A program made the translations under genes and the position numbers. The notes under the pieces are model-generated. The model worked only from the letters and a program-made list of their open reading frames with translations, was not told the origin of the DNA and ran no database searches. Of a DNA stretch of 64,000 nt, positions 55,060-63,960 are shown piece by piece (the stretch's first letter is position 1; every line of letters starts with the position of its first letter). This DNA comes from Pseudomonas nicosulfuronedens (GTDB taxonomy: Bacteria > Pseudomonadota > Gammaproteobacteria > Pseudomonadales > Pseudomonadaceae): contig NZ_SWDV01000019.1 in NCBI RefSeq assembly GCF_005877905.1, forward strand, positions 100,942 through 164,941, given 5' to 3'.

Positions 55060-55674
55060 TCAGGCTGCGCTCAGCAGGCCCTGGCGTTCGATGAAGGTGA
55101 TGATTTCGGCCAGGCCCTGGCCGGTCTTCTGGTTGCTGAACACGAAGGGCTTGTCGCCGCGCATGCGCGAGGCATCCTGGTCCATCACTTCCAGCGAGGC
55201 GCCCACCAGCGGGGCGAGGTCGATCTTGTTGATTACCAGCAGGTCGGACTTGCAGATGCCCGGTCCACCCTTGCGCGGGATCTTGTCGCCGGCGGAGACG
55301 TCGATCACGTAGAGCGTCAGGTCCGACAGCTCGGGGCTGAAGGTGGCCGAGAGGTTGTCGCCGCCGGATTCCACCAGGATCAGGTCCAGGCCGGGGAAGC
55401 GGCGGTTGAGCTGGTCCACGGCTTCCAGGTTGATCGAGGCATCCTCGCGGATCGCCGTGTGCGGGCAGCCGCCGGTTTCCACGCCGATGATCCGCTCCGG
55501 CTCCAGTGCCTCGTTGCGCACCAGGAACTGCGCGTCTTCCTGGGTGTAGATGTCGTTGGTGACCACCGCGATGTTGTAGCGCTGACGCAGGGCGCGGCAC
55601 AGCGCCAGGGTCAGGGCGGTCTTGCCGGAGCCCACCGGGCCGCCGATGCCGACGCGAAGAGGTTGAGAGTTCAT
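55060..55674 (-). CDS. ureG: UreG, urease accessory GTPase
   Basis: 204 aa. P-loop [11 protein letters not shown] (residues 11-21), [14 protein letters not shown], the CPH metal motif in [30 protein letters not shown] and NKIDLAP. GTP-dependent nickel insertase with UreE, UreF and UreD. ATG 55674, 10 nt after ureF, with CTAGGAG overlapping the ureF stop. Confidence 0.96.
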
Positions 55675-55684
55675 GGCAGTTCTC

Positions 55685-56353
55685 CTAGGAGCGGAACAGA
55701 CGGCTGTATTGGGTTTCGTGGGTCATGCAGGCCAGCGCGAGACCGAAGGGCGCGCCGCCGAGGGGATCGTTTGCCAGCGCGGCCTGGCAGGCAGCGTCGA
55801 GCTCGGGGAGCAATTGCGAGGTGAGCTTCTGCGCGGCCAGCTGGCCCAGCGGCAGGGTCTTCATCAGCACCGCCAGCTGGTTCTCCAGCCAGCTCCACAG
55901 CCAGGCGCCGAGGGCCTGCTCCGGGGAAAGCCCCCAGGCGCGGGCGGCCAGCGCCCAGGCGGCGGCGAAGGAGGGCTCGGCCTGCTCGGCGAGCCACTGG
56001 CGAGCGGGTTCGTCCAGCTCGGGCAGGGCTTCGAGCAACTGGCCGAGGGAGAAGCCCATCTGCCGGTTTTCCAGGCCCAGCTCGCGGGTTTCGCGGCTGG
56101 CGCGATGGCGCTCGGCGGCATCGCGCAGGGCGTCCCAGTCGGCGCTCTGTGCGGCGCGCAGCAATTCGGCCAGCAGGGGGGCTTCGAAGCGCGCGAGGTT
56201 GAGATGCAGCTGGTCGACGAGCCAGGTGCGGGCGCCGTCGGCATCCTTCACCTGGCCCTGGTCGATGGCGCTTTCCAGCCCTTGCGAGTAGCTGTAGCCG
56301 CCGATGGGCAACTGGGGGCTGGCCAGGCGCAGCAGCGCCCAGAGGGTGTTCAC
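55685..56353 (-). CDS. ureF: UreF, urease accessory protein
   Basis: 222 aa, all-helical. [20 protein letters not shown] is the UreF signature; ends [19 protein letters not shown], standard C-terminus. GTG start at 56353 overlapping the ureE stop (GTGA). Acts as a GTPase-activating and fidelity factor for UreG in urease assembly. Confidence 0.94.
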
Positions 56354-56850
56354 CGGCGCACTCCGAACTGGTGCAGCTTCGGCGCGTAGTTGAATTCTTC
56401 TTCACCGTGATGCGAATGGTGATGCCCACCACCGTAGGCGCCGTGCTCCGGCTGGAAAGGCGCTTCGATGGCCTCCACGGTGGCGCCGAGCTGGTCGAGC
56501 ATGGCCTTCAGCACATAGTCGTCGAGCAGGCGCAGCCAACCCTCGCCGACCTGCAGGGCAACGTGGCGGTTGCCCAGGTGATAGGCCGCGCGGTTCAGCT
56601 CACACGCGTTGGCGCAGGTGACGTGGAGCAGCTTTTCCGGCGCCGCACAGACGCGCACCACGCGGCCATCGTTGGCCAGCAGGTACTCGCCATCGGCCAG
56701 CGGCGACTGGCCGCGCTCGAGGAACAGGCCGACGTCTTCTCCGCTGCTGCTAAAGCAGCGCAGCCGGCTCTTGCTGCGTGCCTCGTAGTTCAGGCGCAGT
56801 TCTGCGTCCCAGTGTTCGCGGGGTTCGATGCGTTGATGGATGACCAGCAT
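56350..56850 (-). CDS. ureE: UreE, urease nickel metallochaperone
   Basis: 166 aa from ATG 56850 (MLVIHQRIEPREHWDAELRL). N-terminal peptide-binding domain, then the metal domain with HVTCANACELNRAAYHLGNRHVALQ, and a His-rich C-terminus GGGHHHSHHGEEE for nickel storage. First gene of the operon, 34 nt downstream of a sigma-54-type promoter. The structural ureABC and ureD are not in the window. Confidence 0.95.
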   Translation of the reverse strand: MLVIHQRIEPREHWDAELRLNYEARSKSRLRCFSSSGEDVGLFLERGQSPLADGEYLLANDGRVVRVCAAPEKLLHVTCANACELNRAAYHLGNRHVALQVGEGWLRLLDDYVLKAMLDQLGATVEAIEAPFQPEHGAYGGGHHHSHHGEEEFNYAPKLHQFGVRR

Positions 56851-56883
56851 GGCAGTGTCCGGCAGTAGCAATGGCGGTGCTAC

Positions 56884-56899
56884 AGCAAGGGGCTTGCCA
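56884..56899 (-). promoter_or_regulatory. Sigma-54-type promoter of ureEFG-hupE
   Basis: On the minus strand TGGCAAG-N4-TTGCT, one base from the TGGCACG-N4-TTGCW consensus with both invariant GG and GC kept, 34 bp upstream of the ureE ATG. Fits nitrogen control of urease. Confidence 0.75.
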
Positions 56900-56974
56900 G
56901 TGCAGTCCTGGCTCAGTGCTGGCGCGGCCTGGCGGCGTTGTCCGAACGATCAGGAATGGTGCGTGCGCGCAACA

Positions 56975-57003
56975 TTGGTGCGCACGAAAACGGTGCGCAC
57001 CAA
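56975..57003. promoter_or_regulatory. Candidate enhancer palindrome upstream of ureE
   Basis: Perfect inverted repeat TTGGTGCGCAC-N7-GTGCGCACCAA, 76-104 bp upstream of the sigma-54 element, with further GGTGCGTGCGC at 56958. Contains GCACC-N5-CGTGC, one base from the enteric NtrC box GCACC-N5-GGTGC. NtrC binding is inference. Confidence 0.55.
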
Positions 57004-57023
57004 GGCGGGGCGACAGGTATTTT

Positions 57024-57090
57024 GCAGGAGCGAGCTTGCTCGCGAACCGGCCCCGCTGCGAAATCCGTTCGCGAGCAAGCTCGCTCCAAC
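57024..57090. repeat. REP/BIME pair (GAGCGAGC type)
   Basis: 24-bp arms (GGAGCGAGCTTGCTCGCGAAC core and complement) around a CGGCCCCGCTGCG loop; same family as 54384-54451. It sits in the 340-bp region between ureE and desT, which otherwise holds only the ureE control sites. Confidence 0.85.
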
Positions 57091-57190
57091 AGCGGATTTT
57101 CGAGCGCGTGCCAGCGGATCAGCGCGTAGCCGGACCGACGGATGACGCCTTGGGCGTTATCTACCCTGCGTTTGAATTATCGAGTGGGGC

Positions 57191-57826
57191 TCAGGGCCGC
57201 GAACCGATCCCGGTCCAGTGCTTGGCGCCGATCATGATGAAGCGCAGCTGCTGGGTGATCTTGGCCTGGGGCGAGAGGTGCGTCGGCAGGCTGTCCGCCA
57301 GCGGGTCGATCAGCTCGGGCAGGGTGGCGAACACCGTCTTCACCACCAGGTCGGCGATCACGTCGATGTCCTGGGCGGTGAGGTGCGGCAGCTTGTTGAG
57401 CAGCGCCAGGTCAGCGGCCAGGTCGTCGGTGATGCGCTGGCGCAGGGCGCCCACGGCCTGGCGGATCGGGTGTGAGCCGCCGTACTGCTCGCGGGCGAGG
57501 AAGAGAAACTGGGTGCGGTTGGCGGTGACGGCGTCGAGGAAGATGCGTACGGAGGCCTCGATCACGCCGCCCAGCTCGAACTCGTTGCGGCGCACCACGC
57601 GCAGGGTCTCGCGGAAGGTTTCGTCGACATCGGCCACCAGGGCGAGGCCGAGCTGGTCCATGTCGGTGAAGTGCCGGTAGAAGCCTGCCGGCACGATCCC
57701 AGCAGTCTTCGCCACTTCCCGCAGGCTCAGGCTGCCGAAGCCGCGGCCGCTGTCCATCAGGCTGCGCGCGGCGTCCATCAGGGCCAGGCGGGTCTGTTGT
57801 TTCTGTTCGGCGCGGGGAGTGGCCAT
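57191..57826 (-). CDS. desT: DesT, TetR-family regulator of unsaturated fatty acid synthesis
   Basis: 211 aa. N-terminal TetR HTH (SLSLREVAKTAGIVPAGFYRHFTDMDQLGLAL) and a helical ligand domain. Gene order desT-desC-desB and sequence fit P. aeruginosa DesT, which senses the saturated/unsaturated acyl-CoA ratio and represses desCB (and fabAB). Divergent from desC; two palindromes in the 155-bp gap. Confidence 0.92.
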   Translation of the reverse strand: MATPRAEQKQQTRLALMDAARSLMDSGRGFGSLSLREVAKTAGIVPAGFYRHFTDMDQLGLALVADVDETFRETLRVVRRNEFELGGVIEASVRIFLDAVTANRTQFLFLAREQYGGSHPIRQAVGALRQRITDDLAADLALLNKLPHLTAQDIDVIADLVVKTVFATLPELIDPLADSLPTHLSPQAKITQQLRFIMIGAKHWTGIGSRP

Positions 57827-57904
57827 ACGGCAGTGCTATCCAGGGCGAGGGCGCAGGCACTCTAACAAATGCCGGTCGGTGCAGGGGAAGTTCCTGCGGC
57901 AAAT

Positions 57905-57922
57905 AGTGAACGAGTGTTGACT
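57905..57922. promoter_or_regulatory. DesT operator candidate 1
   Basis: AGTGAACG-AG-TGTTGACT, an imperfect 18-bp palindrome whose right half contains TTGACT, a possible -35 element for desC. Confidence 0.6.
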
Positions 57923-57947
57923 GAAAACCTCTCCTCGTGAGATTTTA

Positions 57948-57965
57948 AGTGAACACATGTTTACT
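57948..57965. promoter_or_regulatory. DesT operator candidate 2
   Basis: AGTGAACA-CA-TGTTTACT, 18 bp, half-sites differing at one base, ending 16 nt before the desC ATG and 43 bp from candidate 1. Repeats the AGTGAAC half-site. Confidence 0.7.
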
Positions 57966-57981
57966 GTTTTGGTGTTCCATC

Positions 57982-59082
57982 ATGTCCCTGCTTCCCTTCG
58001 CCGGCCTGCGCTTCATCTCGCCGCTACTGTCTCCGCTTCGCGCTCTGGTGCGCGGCCAGTGGCTGCGCGAGTCGGATGTCGATGCTGTGCTGCGCGCCTG
58101 CAACCCCGGTTGGTCGCTGCGCCGGGTGTTCGCGCGGGTCGAGGCGCGGCAGTGGGTGGCGGACGACATGCTCGAGCTGTGCCTGCGCCCCAATGCGCAC
58201 TGGCGCGGTGCTCGGCCCGGCCAGCACCTGCAGTTGTTCGTCGAGCGCGACGGCGTGCGCCACAGCCGCAGCTACAGCCTGACCCGTATCGCCGAGGACG
58301 GCTGCCTGGAGTTCGCCGTGAAGCTGCAGCCGGGCGGGCGGATTTCCACTTTCCTGCTGCAGCAACTGTGCGTCGGTGAAGTGCTGGAGCTGGGCCAGCC
58401 GGATGGCGACTTGAGCTGGCCGGCCGAAGACCAGGGTGTATTGCTGCTGGCTGCGGGCAGCGGCCTGACGCCCTTGCTCGGCCTGCTGCGCGAGGCACTG
58501 GCGCGCGGTTACAGCGGCCCGGTGACGCTGCTGCATTACGTCCGCGAGCGTGGCCAGAAGGCCTTCGTCGTCGGGCTGGAAGCGCTGGCGCGGCAATACC
58601 CCAATCTCGAACTGCGCTGGGCGCTGAGCGGTGATACCGCGCAGGACGGCGAGTTGTCCGGACGTTTCCAGCGCGCTCACGTGGCCGACCTGGAGGGCCG
58701 TCACGTGCTCGCTTGCGGCCCCGGCGGTTTCGTCGAAACCGTGCGGCAGGTGCTGGGTGCGAGTAGCCGAAGTCTGCAGGTGGAAAGCTTCAGCCCGCCG
58801 GCCTGGGACGACCACGAACCGGCAAGAACGGTGAATCTGCGCTTCGCCCGCAGCGCTCGGCAGGTGGCTGGTGACAGCCGCCGCAGCCTGCTGGAGCAAG
58901 CCGAGTCCCATGGCTTGCGTCCGGTGCATGGCTGCCGCCAAGGCGTCTGCACCAGTTGCACCTGCACGCTGGTCAGCGGCTGCGTGCGCGACCTGCGCAG
59001 CGGAGAGCTATTCAACGAGCCCGGCCAGCCCATCCGCATTTGTGTCAGCGCGCCCCAGGGCGACCTGACTGTCGATCTCTGA
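57982..59082 (+). CDS. desC: DesC, ferredoxin reductase-type electron donor for DesB
   Basis: 366 aa from ATG 57982; an upstream in-frame GTG at 57949 lies in the operator. FAD domain with RSYSLT, NAD domain GVLLLAAGSGLTPLLGLL and CGPGGFVETV, then a C-terminal plant-type [2Fe-2S] domain with C-x4-C-x2-C (HGCRQGVCTSC) and a fourth Cys in RICVSAP. Passes NADPH electrons to the acyl-CoA desaturase encoded 20 nt downstream. Confidence 0.92.
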   Translation: MSLLPFAGLRFISPLLSPLRALVRGQWLRESDVDAVLRACNPGWSLRRVFARVEARQWVADDMLELCLRPNAHWRGARPGQHLQLFVERDGVRHSRSYSLTRIAEDGCLEFAVKLQPGGRISTFLLQQLCVGEVLELGQPDGDLSWPAEDQGVLLLAAGSGLTPLLGLLREALARGYSGPVTLLHYVRERGQKAFVVGLEALARQYPNLELRWALSGDTAQDGELSGRFQRAHVADLEGRHVLACGPGGFVETVRQVLGASSRSLQVESFSPPAWDDHEPARTVNLRFARSARQVAGDSRRSLLEQAESHGLRPVHGCRQGVCTSCTCTLVSGCVRDLRSGELFNEPGQPIRICVSAPQGDLTVDL

Positions 59083-59102
59083 ATAATCGGGAAGCCATCG
59101 CC

Positions 59103-60179
59103 ATGCGTGAAGACCGCGACCTCAGCGCTGCCGAGCTGGCAGCCTTCGGTGCAGAACTGGACGCCCTGCGCCAGCGCACCCTGCATGACCTGGGCGAGAA
59201 CGACGCCCGCTACATCCGCCGCATCCGCGCGGCGGTGCGCTTCTGCTGCTGGAGCGGCCGCGTGCTGCTGATGGCTGGCTGGTTCCCCCCGACCTGGCTG
59301 CTGGGCACCTTCCTGCTCGGGCTGGGCAAGATCCTGGAGAACATGGAACTGGGCCATAACGTCATGCATGGCCAGTACGACTGGATGAACGACCCGGAAT
59401 TCTCCGGACGCAGCTACGAGTGGGACATCGTCGGTCCCTCTGACTTCTGGCGGCACACGCACAACCATGTGCACCACACCTACACCAACGTGTTGGGCAT
59501 GGACGATGACGTGGGCTACGGCGTGGTGCGGCTGTTCCCCGAGCAGAAGTGGAAGCCGTTCTACCGCTGGCAACCGATCTGGGTGACCCTTCAGGCGCTG
59601 CTGTTCCAGTACGCCGTGGCGGTGCAGCATCTGCGCCTGGACAAGTATGTGAAGGGGCGGATGAGCAAGGAGGAGCTGCGCCCGCTGCTGAGCCAGTTCA
59701 ACGCCAAGGTCGGGCGCCAGTGGGTGAAGGATTACCTGGTATTCCCGCTGCTTGGCCTGTTCACCGGTGCTTTCGGCGCGGTGCTGCTGGGTAACGTCAT
59801 CGCCAACCTGATGCGCAACCTGTGGACCTTCACCGTGATCTTCTGCGGCCACTTCACCGAGAAGGCGGCGGTATTCCCGCCCGAGGTGCTGCAGGGCGAG
59901 ACACGCGGCCACTGGTACCTGCGCCAGCTGCGTGGGTCGAGCAACCTGGAAGGTGGCCCGCTGTTCCATATCCTCACCGGTAACCTCAGTCACCAGATCG
60001 AGCATCACCTCTATCCGGACCTGCCGGCGCGCCGTTATGCGCAGCTGTCGAAGGACGTGCAGGCGATTGCTGCGCGCTACGGCCAGACCTACAACAGTGG
60101 CCGTCTGTCGGCGCAATTCGCCACGGTGCTCAAGCGCATCTGGGTGCACCGTCGACCAACGGTGCCGGCCAACGCCTGA
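59103..60179 (+). CDS. desB: DesB, acyl-CoA delta9-desaturase
   Basis: 358-aa membrane di-iron desaturase. Three histidine boxes: HNVMHG, HTHNHVHHT and QIEHHL, separated by hydrophobic segments. Context with desC and desT identifies the inducible aerobic desaturase of P. aeruginosa type that acts on exogenous saturated acyl-CoAs. Confidence 0.93.
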   Translation: MREDRDLSAAELAAFGAELDALRQRTLHDLGENDARYIRRIRAAVRFCCWSGRVLLMAGWFPPTWLLGTFLLGLGKILENMELGHNVMHGQYDWMNDPEFSGRSYEWDIVGPSDFWRHTHNHVHHTYTNVLGMDDDVGYGVVRLFPEQKWKPFYRWQPIWVTLQALLFQYAVAVQHLRLDKYVKGRMSKEELRPLLSQFNAKVGRQWVKDYLVFPLLGLFTGAFGAVLLGNVIANLMRNLWTFTVIFCGHFTEKAAVFPPEVLQGETRGHWYLRQLRGSSNLEGGPLFHILTGNLSHQIEHHLYPDLPARRYAQLSKDVQAIAARYGQTYNSGRLSAQFATVLKRIWVHRRPTVPANA

Positions 60180-60185
60180 GGCGGA

Positions 60186-60401
60186 TCAGGCGCGGCGGGT
60201 CATCGGCGAGGCGATGTCCTCACGCAGGGCGCGCAGGTCGGCGGCGTCCTGGTTGAGGTGGTGAATGGACTTGAGCAGCTTCTGTCGGAGCAGGTCATCC
60301 TGGACCTGTTCGACTGCCCGCATGACTTCCAGGGCCGTGGCCTCGTTGTTGGTGGCGACGGCGTCGAGAGTCTTTCGCAGGCTGCGGGTTGCGTGGTGCA
60401 C
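60186..60401 (-). CDS. Small hypothetical helical protein
   Basis: 71 aa, GTG start at 60401 with AGGAG at 9 nt. Predicted all-helical, no membrane segment, no cysteines (MHHATRSLRKTLDAVATNNE...VQDDLLRQKLLKSIHHLN). No family recognised. Converges on desB with a 6-bp gap. Confidence 0.6.
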   Translation of the reverse strand: MHHATRSLRKTLDAVATNNEATALEVMRAVEQVQDDLLRQKLLKSIHHLNQDAADLRALREDIASPMTRRA

Positions 60402-60514
60402 GTGGGTGATCTCCTGAAAACTGCGTGCACCCTACGACCTGAGTATTTCCAATAAATTTCAACAAGTTGCTTTCCGATCGGCGGTCATGATGTCGCTACC
60501 CGCGGCACATCGAT

Positions 60515-60757
60515 TCAGGAAAGCATGCACAGCGCCAGTAGTGGCACCAGGTTGAGTAGCAGCACACCGATCTTGTAGACGGCCATGCCGCCGTAATGCA
60601 GCGCATCGAACCTCTCCACCGGCAGCGCGAACCAGCGCGAATGCAAGCGATAGACAAAGTCGTGGGCGAGGACGAAGGCGGCGAACCAGACCAGCAGGAT
60701 GGCGTAGTTGATCAGGGTGCAGTAGAGCAGGAAGGGTTTCAGATCCTGGAGCAGCAT
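60515..60757 (-). CDS. Small membrane protein, DUF6868-like
   Basis: 80 aa from ATG 60757 with GGAG upstream. Two hydrophobic stretches (LLYCTLINYAILLVWFAAFVLAHDF; VYKIGVLLLNLVPLLALCML) around RLHSRWFALPVERFDALHYGGMAVYK, the pattern of DUF6868 proteins. Function unknown. The frame opens at 60880 without a plausible start there. Confidence 0.75.
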   Translation of the reverse strand: MLLQDLKPFLLYCTLINYAILLVWFAAFVLAHDFVYRLHSRWFALPVERFDALHYGGMAVYKIGVLLLNLVPLLALCMLS

Positions 60758-60975
60758 GGTGATTCTCCGGATACGTACTGGGTTGGACGCGTGCCAGCGG
60801 GGATGGTTTCCGGCAACCGAACCGGCGTCGGTCCGATAGCCGGCGCGCTGGCCGACGGCCATAATGCGCACCTGCCGCAAACCATGTGATCTTTGCCGCG
60901 CGACCGCTGTCCGATGTGCGGACGGCTAACCTTGCCGTTACACCCCACCTTTCTCATCTGCCTGCCGGACTCGCC

Positions 60976-62286
60976 ATGTTCAGCCCGCTCGTCACCTTTC
61001 CTGCGCTCTATACCGCCACACTGCTGATGCTCGCCGGCTCCGGCCTGTTCACCACCTACATGGGCCTGCGCCTGACCCAGGAAGGCGTCAGTGACCTGTG
61101 GGTCGGCGGCCTGATGGCGGCTTATTACTTCGGCCTGGTCTGTGGCGGCAAGTTCGGCCACAAGCTGATCGCCGGCTTCGGCCACATCCGTTCCTACGTG
61201 GCCTGCGCCGGCATGGCCACGGTGATCGTGCTGATCCACGCGCTGGTCTCGCAGCTGGAGGTGTGGATCTTCCTGCGCTTCGTGATGGGCGCAGTGATGA
61301 TGAACCAGTACATGGTGATCGAGAGCTGGCTCAACGAGCAGGCGGAAGGGCACCAGCGCGGCAAGGTATTCGCCGGCTACATGGTGGCGGTGGACGCCGG
61401 CCTGGTGGTCGGCCAGGGCCTGCTGGCGCTGAGCCCGGCGCTGGATTACAAGCCGCTGCTGCTGGTCGCCATCTGCTTCTCGTCCTGCCTGATCCCGCTG
61501 GCGCTGACTCGCCGCGTCCACCCGGCCAAGCTGGTGGCGGCGCCGTTGGAGATCGGATTCTTCTGGAAGCGTGTGCCGCAGTCGCTGGGCACCATCTTCG
61601 TCGCCGGCCTGATGGTTGGCGCCTTCTACGGTCTGGCGCCGGTGTATGCGGCGCGCAATGGCCTGGACACCGCGCAGTCGAGCCTCTTCGTCGGCATGTG
61701 CATCGTCGCCGGCTTCTGCGCGCAATGGCCGCTGGGTTGGTTGTCCGACCGGGTCAACCGCAGTTGGCTGATTCGCGCCAACGCTTTGCTGCTGTGCCTG
61801 GCGGCGGTGCCGATGTGGGGTCTGGTCGAGCTGCCCTATACGCTGCTGCTGGTGAACGGTTTCGTCACCGGCATGCTGCTGTTTACCCTCTATCCGCTGG
61901 CCGTGGCCCTGGGCAACGACCACGTCGAGCAGTCGCGCCGGGTGGCGCTGTCGGCGATGCTGCTGACCACTTACGGCGTCGGCGCCTGTATTGGCCCGCT
62001 GCTCGCTGGCGCGATGATGCGTCACTTCGGCCCGGGCATGTTCTACATGCTGGTGTCGGCCTATGCGCTGATCCTGATCTTCTGGGTGCAGCCCAAGCGC
62101 GTCACCGGTGTACACCGCGTCGACGAGGCGCCGTTGCACCACGTGGCCATGCCCGACACCGTCAGCCCGATGGCCGCCGCGCTGGACCCGCGTGTCGAGG
62201 AAGTACCGGAAGAGCTGGTGGTGGAAGCGCCGGCGAGCATTGGTCGCTCCGATGGCGAGCCGGGTGCTGGCGAGACGAAGAGCTGA
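60976..62286 (+). CDS. MFS transporter (YcaD-like)
   Basis: 436 aa from ATG 60976; an in-frame start at 60886 would add a non-homologous leader. Twelve predicted helices with GHKLIAGFGHIR in loop 2-3 and a GWLSDRVNRSWL motif after helix 8; a ~50-residue acidic cytosolic tail. Resembles E. coli YcaD and the PA4887-type transporter next to desB. Substrate unknown. Confidence 0.87.
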   Translation: MFSPLVTFPALYTATLLMLAGSGLFTTYMGLRLTQEGVSDLWVGGLMAAYYFGLVCGGKFGHKLIAGFGHIRSYVACAGMATVIVLIHALVSQLEVWIFLRFVMGAVMMNQYMVIESWLNEQAEGHQRGKVFAGYMVAVDAGLVVGQGLLALSPALDYKPLLLVAICFSSCLIPLALTRRVHPAKLVAAPLEIGFFWKRVPQSLGTIFVAGLMVGAFYGLAPVYAARNGLDTAQSSLFVGMCIVAGFCAQWPLGWLSDRVNRSWLIRANALLLCLAAVPMWGLVELPYTLLLVNGFVTGMLLFTLYPLAVALGNDHVEQSRRVALSAMLLTTYGVGACIGPLLAGAMMRHFGPGMFYMLVSAYALILIFWVQPKRVTGVHRVDEAPLHHVAMPDTVSPMAAALDPRVEEVPEELVVEAPASIGRSDGEPGAGETKS

Positions 62287-62312: not shown

Positions 62313-62341
62313 AAAGCCCGGCAGATGCCGGGCTTTTCTTT
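62313..62341. terminator. Bidirectional terminator between MFS and repeat-protein genes
   Basis: Stem AAAGCCCGGC/GCCGGGCTTT with AGAT loop, tail TTCTTT rightward; leftward it serves the 62368-62862 gene (tail CTCATTT). Confidence 0.85.
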
Positions 62342-62367: not shown

Positions 62368-62862
62368 TCAGGAAACACGCTTCAGATGGGCATCGAACAC
62401 AGTGTCACCACCGGACTCGGCAACCATGTTGCTGTGCAGCTTGTCGATGGTGTGCTCGGAGCCGTTCTCGGCAACGCGGACGTCATCCATCTGCTTGTGC
62501 AGGCGGTCGATGGTGCGCTCGGAGCCGTTGTCGGCAACGCGGGCATCGTCCATTTGCTTGTGCAGGCGGTCGATGGTGCGCTCGGAACCGTTGTCGGCGA
62601 CGCGGGCGTCATCCATTTGCTTGTGCAGGCGGTCGATGGTGCGTTCGGAGCCGCTATCGGCTACGCGAGCTTCACCCATTTGCTTGTGCAGGCGATCGAT
62701 GGTGCGTTCGGAGCCATTGGCGGATACGCGAGGTTCGGCGCTCTGCTGCTGCAGTTGATGGGTGCTGCGCGGGCCGTTGTTGAGGATGGCCGGGGCGGCG
62801 AAGACGGCGCTGGCGGTCATCAGGGAAGTCAGTGCAAGGCTGAGGGCGATCTTGGTTTTCAT
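62368..62862 (-). CDS. Secreted tandem-repeat protein A (21-residue repeats)
   Basis: 164 aa. Signal peptide (MKTKIALSLALTSLMTASAVFA). Residues 49-149 are four 21-aa units of the form NGSERTIDRLHKQMDDARVAD and a shorter fifth (NGSEHTIDKLHSNMVAE), then SGGDTVFDAHLKRVS. Encoded by 62416-62718. Hydrophilic, many His/Arg/Asp, no cysteine. Shares its C-terminus with the next gene. GGAG precedes the ATG. No known domain recognised; distantly reminiscent of Pseudomonas secreted AEGGSDRT-repeat proteins. Function unknown. Confidence 0.85.
   Translation of the reverse strand: MKTKIALSLALTSLMTASAVFAAPAILNNGPRSTHQLQQQSAEPRVSANGSERTIDRLHKQMGEARVADSGSERTIDRLHKQMDDARVADNGSERTIDRLHKQMDDARVADNGSERTIDRLHKQMDDVRVAENGSEHTIDKLHSNMVAESGGDTVFDAHLKRVS
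62416..62718 (-). repeat. 63-bp in-frame tandem repeats in gene A
   Basis: Four full 63-bp units and one of 51 bp. Units differ mainly at synonymous or conservative positions; the shared core encodes GSERTIDRLHKQM. Confidence 0.9.
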
Positions 62863-63192
62863 GTTGTGCGGCTCCGAAGGGGGGCGATATGTTTTGGCTA
62901 CAGGGTTATTTTCCCTTCGGATAAATCGATTTAAAAACGATGATGCGTGATACAGAGCATCAGTGTTGTCGATTATTTAGCCGGCTAATTTCAACTATCG
63001 CCGTCAATGATGGAACGACGAAAACCGCTCTAGGGCGGTGTTCAGAGGCGTGTTTCAGGAGGTTTCAGGCAAGAAGCTGTTACAAAACACGGCTGGCCTG
63101 TTATCGATGGCGGGACTTCACGGGTTTCCAGCGATAAGAAAGCCCGGCGGGGCCGGGCTTTTCTCTCACCTTGCGGTGTACTGCCTGGAGCT
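62863..63192. other. 330-bp region between the two repeat-protein genes
   Basis: Holds the upstream control region of gene A (relatively AT-rich, 62900-62960) and the terminator of gene B at 63139-63161. I see no gene. Confidence 0.6.
63139..63166. terminator. Terminator of repeat-protein gene B
   Basis: 10-bp stem AAAGCCCGGC/GCCGGGCTTT with GGG loop, tail on the leftward side TTTCTTATC; nearly the same stem as the terminator at 62313. Confidence 0.85.
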
Positions 63193-63960
63193 TCATGCCT
63201 TCAGGTGAGCATCGAAGACGGTGTCGCCACCCGATTCGGCCACCATGTTGCTGTGCAGTTGGTCGATGGTGTGCTCGGAGCCGTTTTCGGCAACGCTCAT
63301 CTCTTCATGCAGACGGTCGATGGTTTTGCTCGAACCGTTTTCAGCGACACCCAGTTGCTTGTGCAGGCGATCGACGGTCTGGCTGGAGCCATTTTCGGCG
63401 ACGTTCATTGCCTGGTGCAGACGGTCAACCGACTTGCTCGAACCGTTTTCGGCAACGCTCATCTCGTCGTGCAGACGGTCGATGGTTTTGCTCGAGCCGT
63501 TTTCAGCGACGCTCAGTTGCTTGTGCAGGCGGTCGACGGTCTGGCTGGAGCCGTTTTCGGCGACGTTCATTTCCCGGTGCAGTCGGTCAACCGACTGGCT
63601 TGAACCGTTTTCAGCGACGCTCATCTCGTCGTGCAGACGGTCGACGGTTTTGCTCGAGCCGTTTTCAGCGACGCCCAGTTGCTTGTGCAGGCGGTCGACG
63701 GTCTGGCTGGAACCATTCTCGGCCACGTTCATTTTCTGGATCAGGCGATCGACCGACTGGCTGGAGCCGTTTTCGGCGATACGGGCCTTGGCCGCGTCCA
63801 GCAGTTTCTGCTGCTGACCCAGGCTGCGTTCGGCGCCTTCCTGAACCAGAACCTGGGTCTGGCTGGCATTGATCACAGGGGATTCCTGCTGGGAGCCGGC
63901 GAAAGCGGCATTGGCAGCAAGTACGGAGAGGGCAAAGCCAAGTACGAGGGTGCGTTTCAT
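63193..63960 (-). CDS. Secreted tandem-repeat protein B (18-residue repeats)
   Basis: 255 aa. Signal peptide (MKRTLVLGFALSVLAANAAFAG), a 40-residue linker, then ten 18-aa units (residues 61-240) of the form VAENGSSQTVDRLHKQLG, and AESGGDTVFDAHLKA. Units fall into three types in the order A-B-C three times (A ends MN, B HKQLG/S, C DEMS/EEMS) plus a terminal unit. Encoded at 63241-63780. Paralogue of gene A. TGGAG precedes ATG 63960. No catalytic motif; a structural, binding or surface role is a guess. Confidence 0.85.
   Translation of the reverse strand: MKRTLVLGFALSVLAANAAFAGSQQESPVINASQTQVLVQEGAERSLGQQQKLLDAAKARIAENGSSQSVDRLIQKMNVAENGSSQTVDRLHKQLGVAENGSSKTVDRLHDEMSVAENGSSQSVDRLHREMNVAENGSSQTVDRLHKQLSVAENGSSKTIDRLHDEMSVAENGSSKSVDRLHQAMNVAENGSSQTVDRLHKQLGVAENGSSKTIDRLHEEMSVAENGSEHTIDQLHSNMVAESGGDTVFDAHLKA
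63241..63780 (-). repeat. 54-bp tandem repeats with 162-bp super-repeat in gene B
   Basis: Ten units of 54 bp, grouped as three 162-bp (A-B-C) blocks and a final unit. The higher order shows block duplication as well as unit duplication. Confidence 0.9.

Follow-up and report, generated by a model that had tools for sequence, protein, structure and literature searches.

A pair of tandem repeat protein genes of Pseudomonas nicosulfuronedens with a likely link to MexT and a possible protective role in the periplasm

Which role can be assigned to two adjacent genes that encode proteins built from short tandem repeats? Such a pair closes the window analysed here, a stretch of 64,000 nucleotides from Pseudomonas nicosulfuronedens. 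Genes for a UreG-like protein, a TetR regulator, a fatty acid desaturase and an MFS transporter precede the pair (55060-62286). Judging from the PAO1 gene order we take this region to correspond to PA4887-PA4893, near PA4881.

Organisation of the gene pair

The following features were assigned to the two genes (basis in brackets):

62368..62862, reverse strand: gene 1, 164-aa repeat protein (ORF list, unit spacing, pN/pS)
62473..62724, reverse strand: four units of 21 residues in gene 1, residues 47-130 (unit spacing)
62371..62472, reverse strand: last unit of gene 1 and PtrA_N-like C-terminal tail VAESGGDTVFDAHLKRVS (unit spacing, PtrA_N model)
62313..62336, reverse strand: hairpin and T-run, likely terminator of gene 1 (hairpin scan)
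63193..63960, reverse strand: gene 2, 255-aa repeat protein (ORF list, unit spacing, pN/pS)
63292..63777, reverse strand: nine units of 18 residues in gene 2, residues 62-223 (unit spacing)
63196..63291, reverse strand: last unit of gene 2 and PtrA_N-like C-terminal tail VAESGGDTVFDAHLKA (unit spacing, PtrA_N model)
63141..63154, reverse strand: hairpin and T-run, likely terminator of gene 2 (hairpin scan)

The original prediction of two genuine coding sequences at these positions was confirmed by the ORF list and by signs of purifying selection. The pN/pS ratio among the units amounted to 0.17 in the 164-aa protein and to 0.34 in the 255-aa protein, and ranged from 0.11 to 0.21 across five orthologue comparisons, in which the differences were found mainly at third codon positions. 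In view of these low values among units and between orthologues both genes are selected as proteins.

The further claims on the architecture of the proteins also proved correct. Tandem units of 21 and 18 residues are evident from the unit starts, of which the gene 1 protein contains 5 (spacing 21, 21, 21, 21) and the gene 2 protein 10 (nine spacings of 18), as well as from TRF, which assigned a score of 430 and a period of 63 to the DNA array of gene 1 and a score of 812 and a period of 162 to that of gene 2. The latter period equals three 18-residue units, i.e. a higher-order period of 54 residues. A signal-peptide-like start was recognised by eye in both proteins (residues 1-22 in gene 1, residues 1-21 in gene 2). 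Furthermore, the core NGSxxT[VI]DRLH and the C-terminal VAESGGDTVFDAHLK, which continues directly from the last unit, are common to both sequences. With regard to the predicted separate termination of the genes, a hairpin followed by a T-run lies 3' of each gene, but the number of such sites in the region was close to chance (4 versus 3.0 expected).

A repeat family with a PtrA-like tail

A first protein search detected 46 homologues at E<=1e-3. A profile built from 16 sequences matched in 24 of the 25 genomes searched within the genus and in 236 of the 398 genomes taken from the taxonomic family (8 of 19 genera). Named loci include those of P. nitroreducens, P. citronellolis, P. delhiensis, P. 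panipatensis and P. aeruginosa PA7. In other genera the unit reads VAEGGSDRLIERNNR (15 residues) or VAEGGSDRLIERRQQHMQ (18 residues).

Counts out of 50 members refer to a set that includes both window proteins. The membership signature, which the window pair shares, consists of a signal peptide (by eye) and tandem [AV]E[NG]GSxx[TL][IVL][DE]R units. The unit-start spacings in this set (n=272) were mostly 18 (139), 22 (41), 21 (39), 23 (19) and 15 residues (15), and the number of unit starts per protein varied from 3 to 15. At one locus (L034), where three repeat genes lie in a row, one protein carries both 21/22- and 18-residue units, and another gene combines a start of the 21-residue type with units of 18 residues. 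Unit lengths of 21 and 18 residues thus interconvert, in agreement with the suggested descent of the window pair from one ancestor by a 3-residue change in unit length. At the same locus a protein of 320 aa has 15 unit starts and consists for the most part of nearly identical units, which suggests a recent expansion.

A search with a relative from another genus revealed 105 proteins at E<=1e-3, and a few of these bear the name "phage infection protein". This designation, which is attached to several family members in databases (P0003, P0008, P0064, P0078), seems to have been transferred erroneously, since scans of 12 members with Pfam and NCBIfam gave no Pip/YhgE match. Pip is a large membrane protein, and the likeness of Pip/YhgE to the family consists solely in the database name of several relatives.

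The original statement that no described domain was recognised proved only partly right. To the NCBIfam model NF041599 (PtrA N-terminal domain) the window proteins score 23.8 and 14.3 bits, below the cut-off of 31, but their C-terminal unit resembles PtrA_N, as outlined below. Among ten relatives five pass the cut-off (67.1, 60.0, 58.2, 37.7 and 35.2 bits; repeat proteins from other genera), four stay below it and one gives no match. With a PtrA_N model of our own, based on 19 PtrA_N segments and controlled by 20 shuffles per protein, the C-terminal tails of the window proteins reached 12.5 and 12.4 bits compared to maxima of 7.9 and 2.4 for their own shuffles. The tails exceeded all 20 of their own shuffles in 40 of 42 proteins, the best of all tail shuffles scoring 7.9 bits. 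The PtrA_N motif AE[GS]G[GA]D-x-[TV]-F is present in both window tails. The repeat bodies exceeded all 20 of their own controls in 23 of the 50 members, while one control body scored 14.2 bits. The body of gene 1 obtained 9.6 bits versus -0.3 for its best shuffle, no match to the model was reported for the body of gene 2, and the body of the PA4881-like protein of PA7 (1.8 bits) remained below its best control (9.4 bits). Based on these sequence comparisons the C-terminal tail is PtrA_N-like, and the repeat body may be a diverged relative at best. The closest sequence to the C-terminal unit of the window proteins was seen in a single-unit PtrA_N protein (L098) with AESGGDRVFDRMAQAR.

The C-terminal AESGGDTVFDAHLK of the pair thus matches the motif of the N-terminal domain of PtrA (PA2808). 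The window proteins differ from PtrA in being tandem arrays, in lacking cysteine and in scoring below the NF041599 cut-off. PtrA is reported to be periplasmic and controlled by CopRS (PMC7763554, PMC8872213), the control by CopR being stated in the former paper, whereas the window family possesses a nod box instead.

Nod boxes and a likely link to MexT

The region 5' of gene 1 contains the following elements:

62872..62875, reverse strand: GGAG, likely ribosome-binding site of gene 1 (read from the sequence)
62925..62940, reverse strand: TCGTTTTTAAATCGAT, element conserved 5' of family genes (upstream-region comparison)
62959..62973, forward strand: ATCAGTGTTGTCGAT, nod-box-type ATYA-N7-YGAT, inverted relative to gene 1 (consensus from PMC11432991)
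62997..63011, reverse strand: ATCATTGACGGCGAT, second ATYA-N7-YGAT site, in the direction of gene 1 (motif search)

The upstream regions of the family, which were long enough for motif counts in 49 of the 50 members, are strongly conserved. The core of the TCGTTTTTAAATCGAT element was detected in 39 of them (0.17 expected). ATYA(N7)YGAT, given as the nod box of MexT in PMC11432991, occurs on either strand in 46 of the 49 regions (2.6 expected in shuffles), and ATC-N9-GAT in 47 (6.1 expected in shuffles). The full motif ATCAN5RTCGATN4AYYAT, beginning 107-113 bases 5' of the ATG, was found in 24 regions (0 expected in shuffles), the shuffle figures overstating the support as the motif was derived from these same, related regions. 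The other 25 regions, including that of gene 1, lack the full motif. ATYA-N7-YGAT is present on both strands 5' of gene 1, and ATCAGTGTTGTCGAT is the likely candidate for a MexT site there. The window ends with the contig, so that only 40 bases 5' of gene 2 are visible and its own promoter lies off the contig; close relatives of gene 2 (e.g. L023 and L027) are preceded by the full motif.

An independent check of the motif was provided by searching the whole genome. A single exact site was found (reversed control 0), which precedes genes for an ArsR regulator, an MFS transporter and an N-ethylmaleimide-reductase-like protein and thereby shows the make-up of pyeRM-xenB, named as MexT-regulated in PMC7950407. 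With one mismatch allowed, 7 sites were detected versus 0 in the control. One of them precedes a glutathione-transferase-like gene, while the rest lie within ORFs or in front of genes that by eye are ribA-like and OprD-like. Ten exact sites were identified in six further genomes. Four of these precede repeat genes (by position), five pyeR-type genes (three assigned by reading, two by an identical box) and one a small lipoprotein-like gene, the last in PA7 (L102); the reversed controls of the six genomes gave 2 sites in all with up to one mismatch. Two of the six genomes have no repeat-family match and nevertheless carry the box before a pyeR-type gene, exact in G024, the sole genome of the 25 in the genus without such a match, and with one mismatch in G036. 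As side observations, the near-match box ATGAAAGCAATCGATAGTSACCAT lies before a glutathione-transferase-like gene at two loci (L068 and L117), similar boxes occur in four more genomes, and the OprD-like gene of the window's genome that follows a one-mismatch box (L069) seems, by eye, to encode a porin.

The genome also encodes MexT itself (374 bits to the solved MexT 6l33) beside an RND adaptor gene, with ATCACTCCACGTGAT located between the two genes. The window genes are likely to be switched on by the redox-responsive MexT, which would bind at the boxes described here.

P. aeruginosa PA7 contains two members of the family. The first is located after a ferritin-like gene and before genes for a molybdopterin oxidoreductase, a cytochrome b561 and a response regulator; the second follows a gene for a ShlB-type two-partner secretion transporter, which presumably sits at the position of CdrAB. 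By the PAO1 gene order, the two members are likely the counterparts of PA4881 and PA4623, respectively. They share with the window family the signal peptide, NGSxxTxDRLH units (22-24 residues) and a nod-box promoter, all read in PA7, whereas they have fewer units than the window pair and lack the AESGGDTVFDAHLK tail. The first assignment fits the description of PA4881 as an uncharacterised tandem repeat protein under MexT in PMC3557286.

Published transcriptomes rank both PAO1 genes with those that depend most on MexT. In PAO1 without mexT the log2 changes amounted to -6.5 for PA4881 and -5.8 for PA4623 as compared to -6.3 for mexE and -6.4 for mexF (PMC12607905), so that the response of both genes to MexT is similar in strength to that of the efflux pump. 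Their transcripts were also lower in parS and parR mutants (PMC3848899), and raised by an enynone inducing mexEF-oprN (PMC10848761) and in a desB mutant (data not shown therein; PMC4521719). Inputs besides MexT act on these genes as well, since PA2206 binds the PA4881 promoter (PMC3557286) and PA4623 is strongly raised in an ex vivo biofilm (PMC8627541), raised with phage infection (PMC12041424) and lowered by nanosilver (PMC10591374). In P. fluorescens In5 a "phage infection protein" gene, assigned to the repeat family by its name only, was up 32-fold against Rhizoctonia solani and not against a Pythium, and an azoreductase and a glutathionyl-hydroquinone reductase were raised along with it (PMC5557065).

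The likely relatives PA4881 and PA4623, the window pair and many proteins named "hypothetical" or "phage infection" can be grouped into a single family that shares a box type and a PtrA-like motif. Among the papers listed in our literature search, mainly openly accessible ones, none was found to unite PA4881, PA4623 and their relatives in this way or to connect them with PtrA. The grouping corrects the misleading database name, and with it a small number of deletions in any Pseudomonas would suffice to test the role of the family.

Possible roles in the envelope

Metal-binding, adhesin, phage-receptor and matrix roles had been considered originally; promoters and transcriptomes rather indicate a stress response under MexT. 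The mature part is free of cysteine in all 50 members and FoldIndex is negative in 49. Hydrophilins are defined by a glycine content above 6% and a GRAVY below -1, values found for gene 1 (6.3%, -1.05) and for 10 of the 50 members, while gene 2 exceeds the GRAVY limit (6.9%, -0.77). Like hydrophilins and LEA-like protectants the window proteins are hydrophilic, repetitive, Cys-free and helix-prone; the unit motif of the family is far stricter than in hydrophilins.

The helical tendency was deduced from AlphaFold2 models. That of the 164-aa protein shows helices broken near NGS (mean pLDDT 50), as expected for the predicted turn-helix units, whereas that of the 255-aa protein forms one helix (67-224) with a mean pLDDT of 63. 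Residues 71-190 of this model reach about 70-89, and the means of the five models lie between 63 and 33. As both models are weak, they are taken to suggest helix-prone proteins and nothing beyond. A Foldseek search of the gene 2 model against the PDB gave 3 matches at E<=10 and none at 0.001. The idea of a periplasmic ruler, based on the 158-residue helix of this model, was dropped due to the variable number of unit starts (3 to 15), and a strict coiled coil is not claimed, since its 18/5 and 21/6 residues per turn agree with the unit lengths of the window but not with the spacings of 23, 24 and 26 residues. Sequence matches of both proteins in Pfam, NCBIfam, PHROGs and the PDB were set aside as mostly coiled-coil or repeat-driven. 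They include DUF6356 on gene 2, the one Pfam row above its cut-off (25.7 bits, cut-off 24.4; best residues 153-168, no stretch significant alone), as well as NCBIfam ORF80 (E 7e-6, below its cut-off) and phrog_35043 of unknown function (PHROG rows up to 1.6e-14), all of which rest on short repeated stretches.

The reading that we favour, although we rate it somewhat below an even chance, is that the MexT-induced, Sec-exported, Cys-free helical repeat proteins act as multivalent periplasmic protectants against electrophile or oxidant stress. Redox-responsive MexT would induce both genes under such stress, Sec would export the proteins to the periplasm, and their hydrophilic units would form flexible amphipathic helices weakly holding many envelope partners. 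Since each unit would work alone, the number of units would be free to change. We infer in this proposal the export, the identity of the PA7 genes with PA4881 and PA4623, the action of MexT on the window genes and the protection itself. In PMC7950407 a mexT mutant is described as sensitive to HOCl, as are mutants in four of eight other MexT-dependent genes, which do not necessarily include PA4881 or PA4623. On the other hand, loss of PA4881 did not increase the sensitivity to H2O2 in disk tests (PMC3557286, data not shown therein), the strictness of the AE[NG]GS motif speaks more for a specific ligand than for a generic shield, and the hydrophilin values apply to gene 1 and not to gene 2.

It seems rather unlikely that the arrays serve as a periplasmic metal buffer, in which the His/Met ligands of each unit (H-x-x-M) bind copper or a similar metal. 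The number of H-x-x-M motifs amounts to 5 in gene 1 and 6 in gene 2, and PtrA, which the tail resembles, is called a periplasmic copper storage protein in a review (PMC8872213). However, the 6 of 50 members lacking H-x-x-M are mostly those with the best PtrA_N scores, cysteine is absent, control is likely exerted by MexT and not by CopRS, PA4623 responds to nanosilver by a decrease, and a copper proteome paper (PMC6444534) was absent from the 8 papers found to mention PA4881, PA4882 or PA4883. A function as methionine sink was dropped as well: the molybdopterin oxidoreductase of PA7 scores 93 bits against MsrP (cut-off 207), and four of the 50 members have no methionine in the mature part.

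The two-partner secretion gene beside the second PA7 member and the strong increase of PA4623 in the ex vivo biofilm would suit exported repeats that reach the cell surface and help cells to stick together. We regard such a surface or matrix protein as improbable, considering that neither the window pair nor the other PA7 member adjoins a secretion gene, that the AlphaFold2 models contain no beta structure and that no outer-membrane anchor was seen by eye.

PtrA owes its name to its description as a type III repressor. Together with the PtrA_N-like tail and the MexT control of the likely PAO1 relatives, this name could speak for units that report envelope stress and lower other traits, e.g. 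type III secretion. Such a signalling role appears very improbable to us, as no sensor or anti-sigma gene was seen by eye beside the pair and PtrA is reported to be periplasmic (title of Elsen 2011). There is scarcely any likelihood that the repeats are a precursor from which a short secreted peptide is released in many copies: the units are similar and variable in number, but neither regularly placed dibasic sites nor other obvious cleavage sites were found between them and the units within gene 2 differ from each other.

Returning to the protectants, a wider proposal, which we consider possible but doubtful, is that a PtrA_N-like unit was copied into helical arrays of variable length, which would constitute the main non-efflux output of MexT and an envelope defence module of Pseudomonadaceae. 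If true, MexT would answer electrophiles both with a pump and with a shield of repeat proteins in the periplasm.
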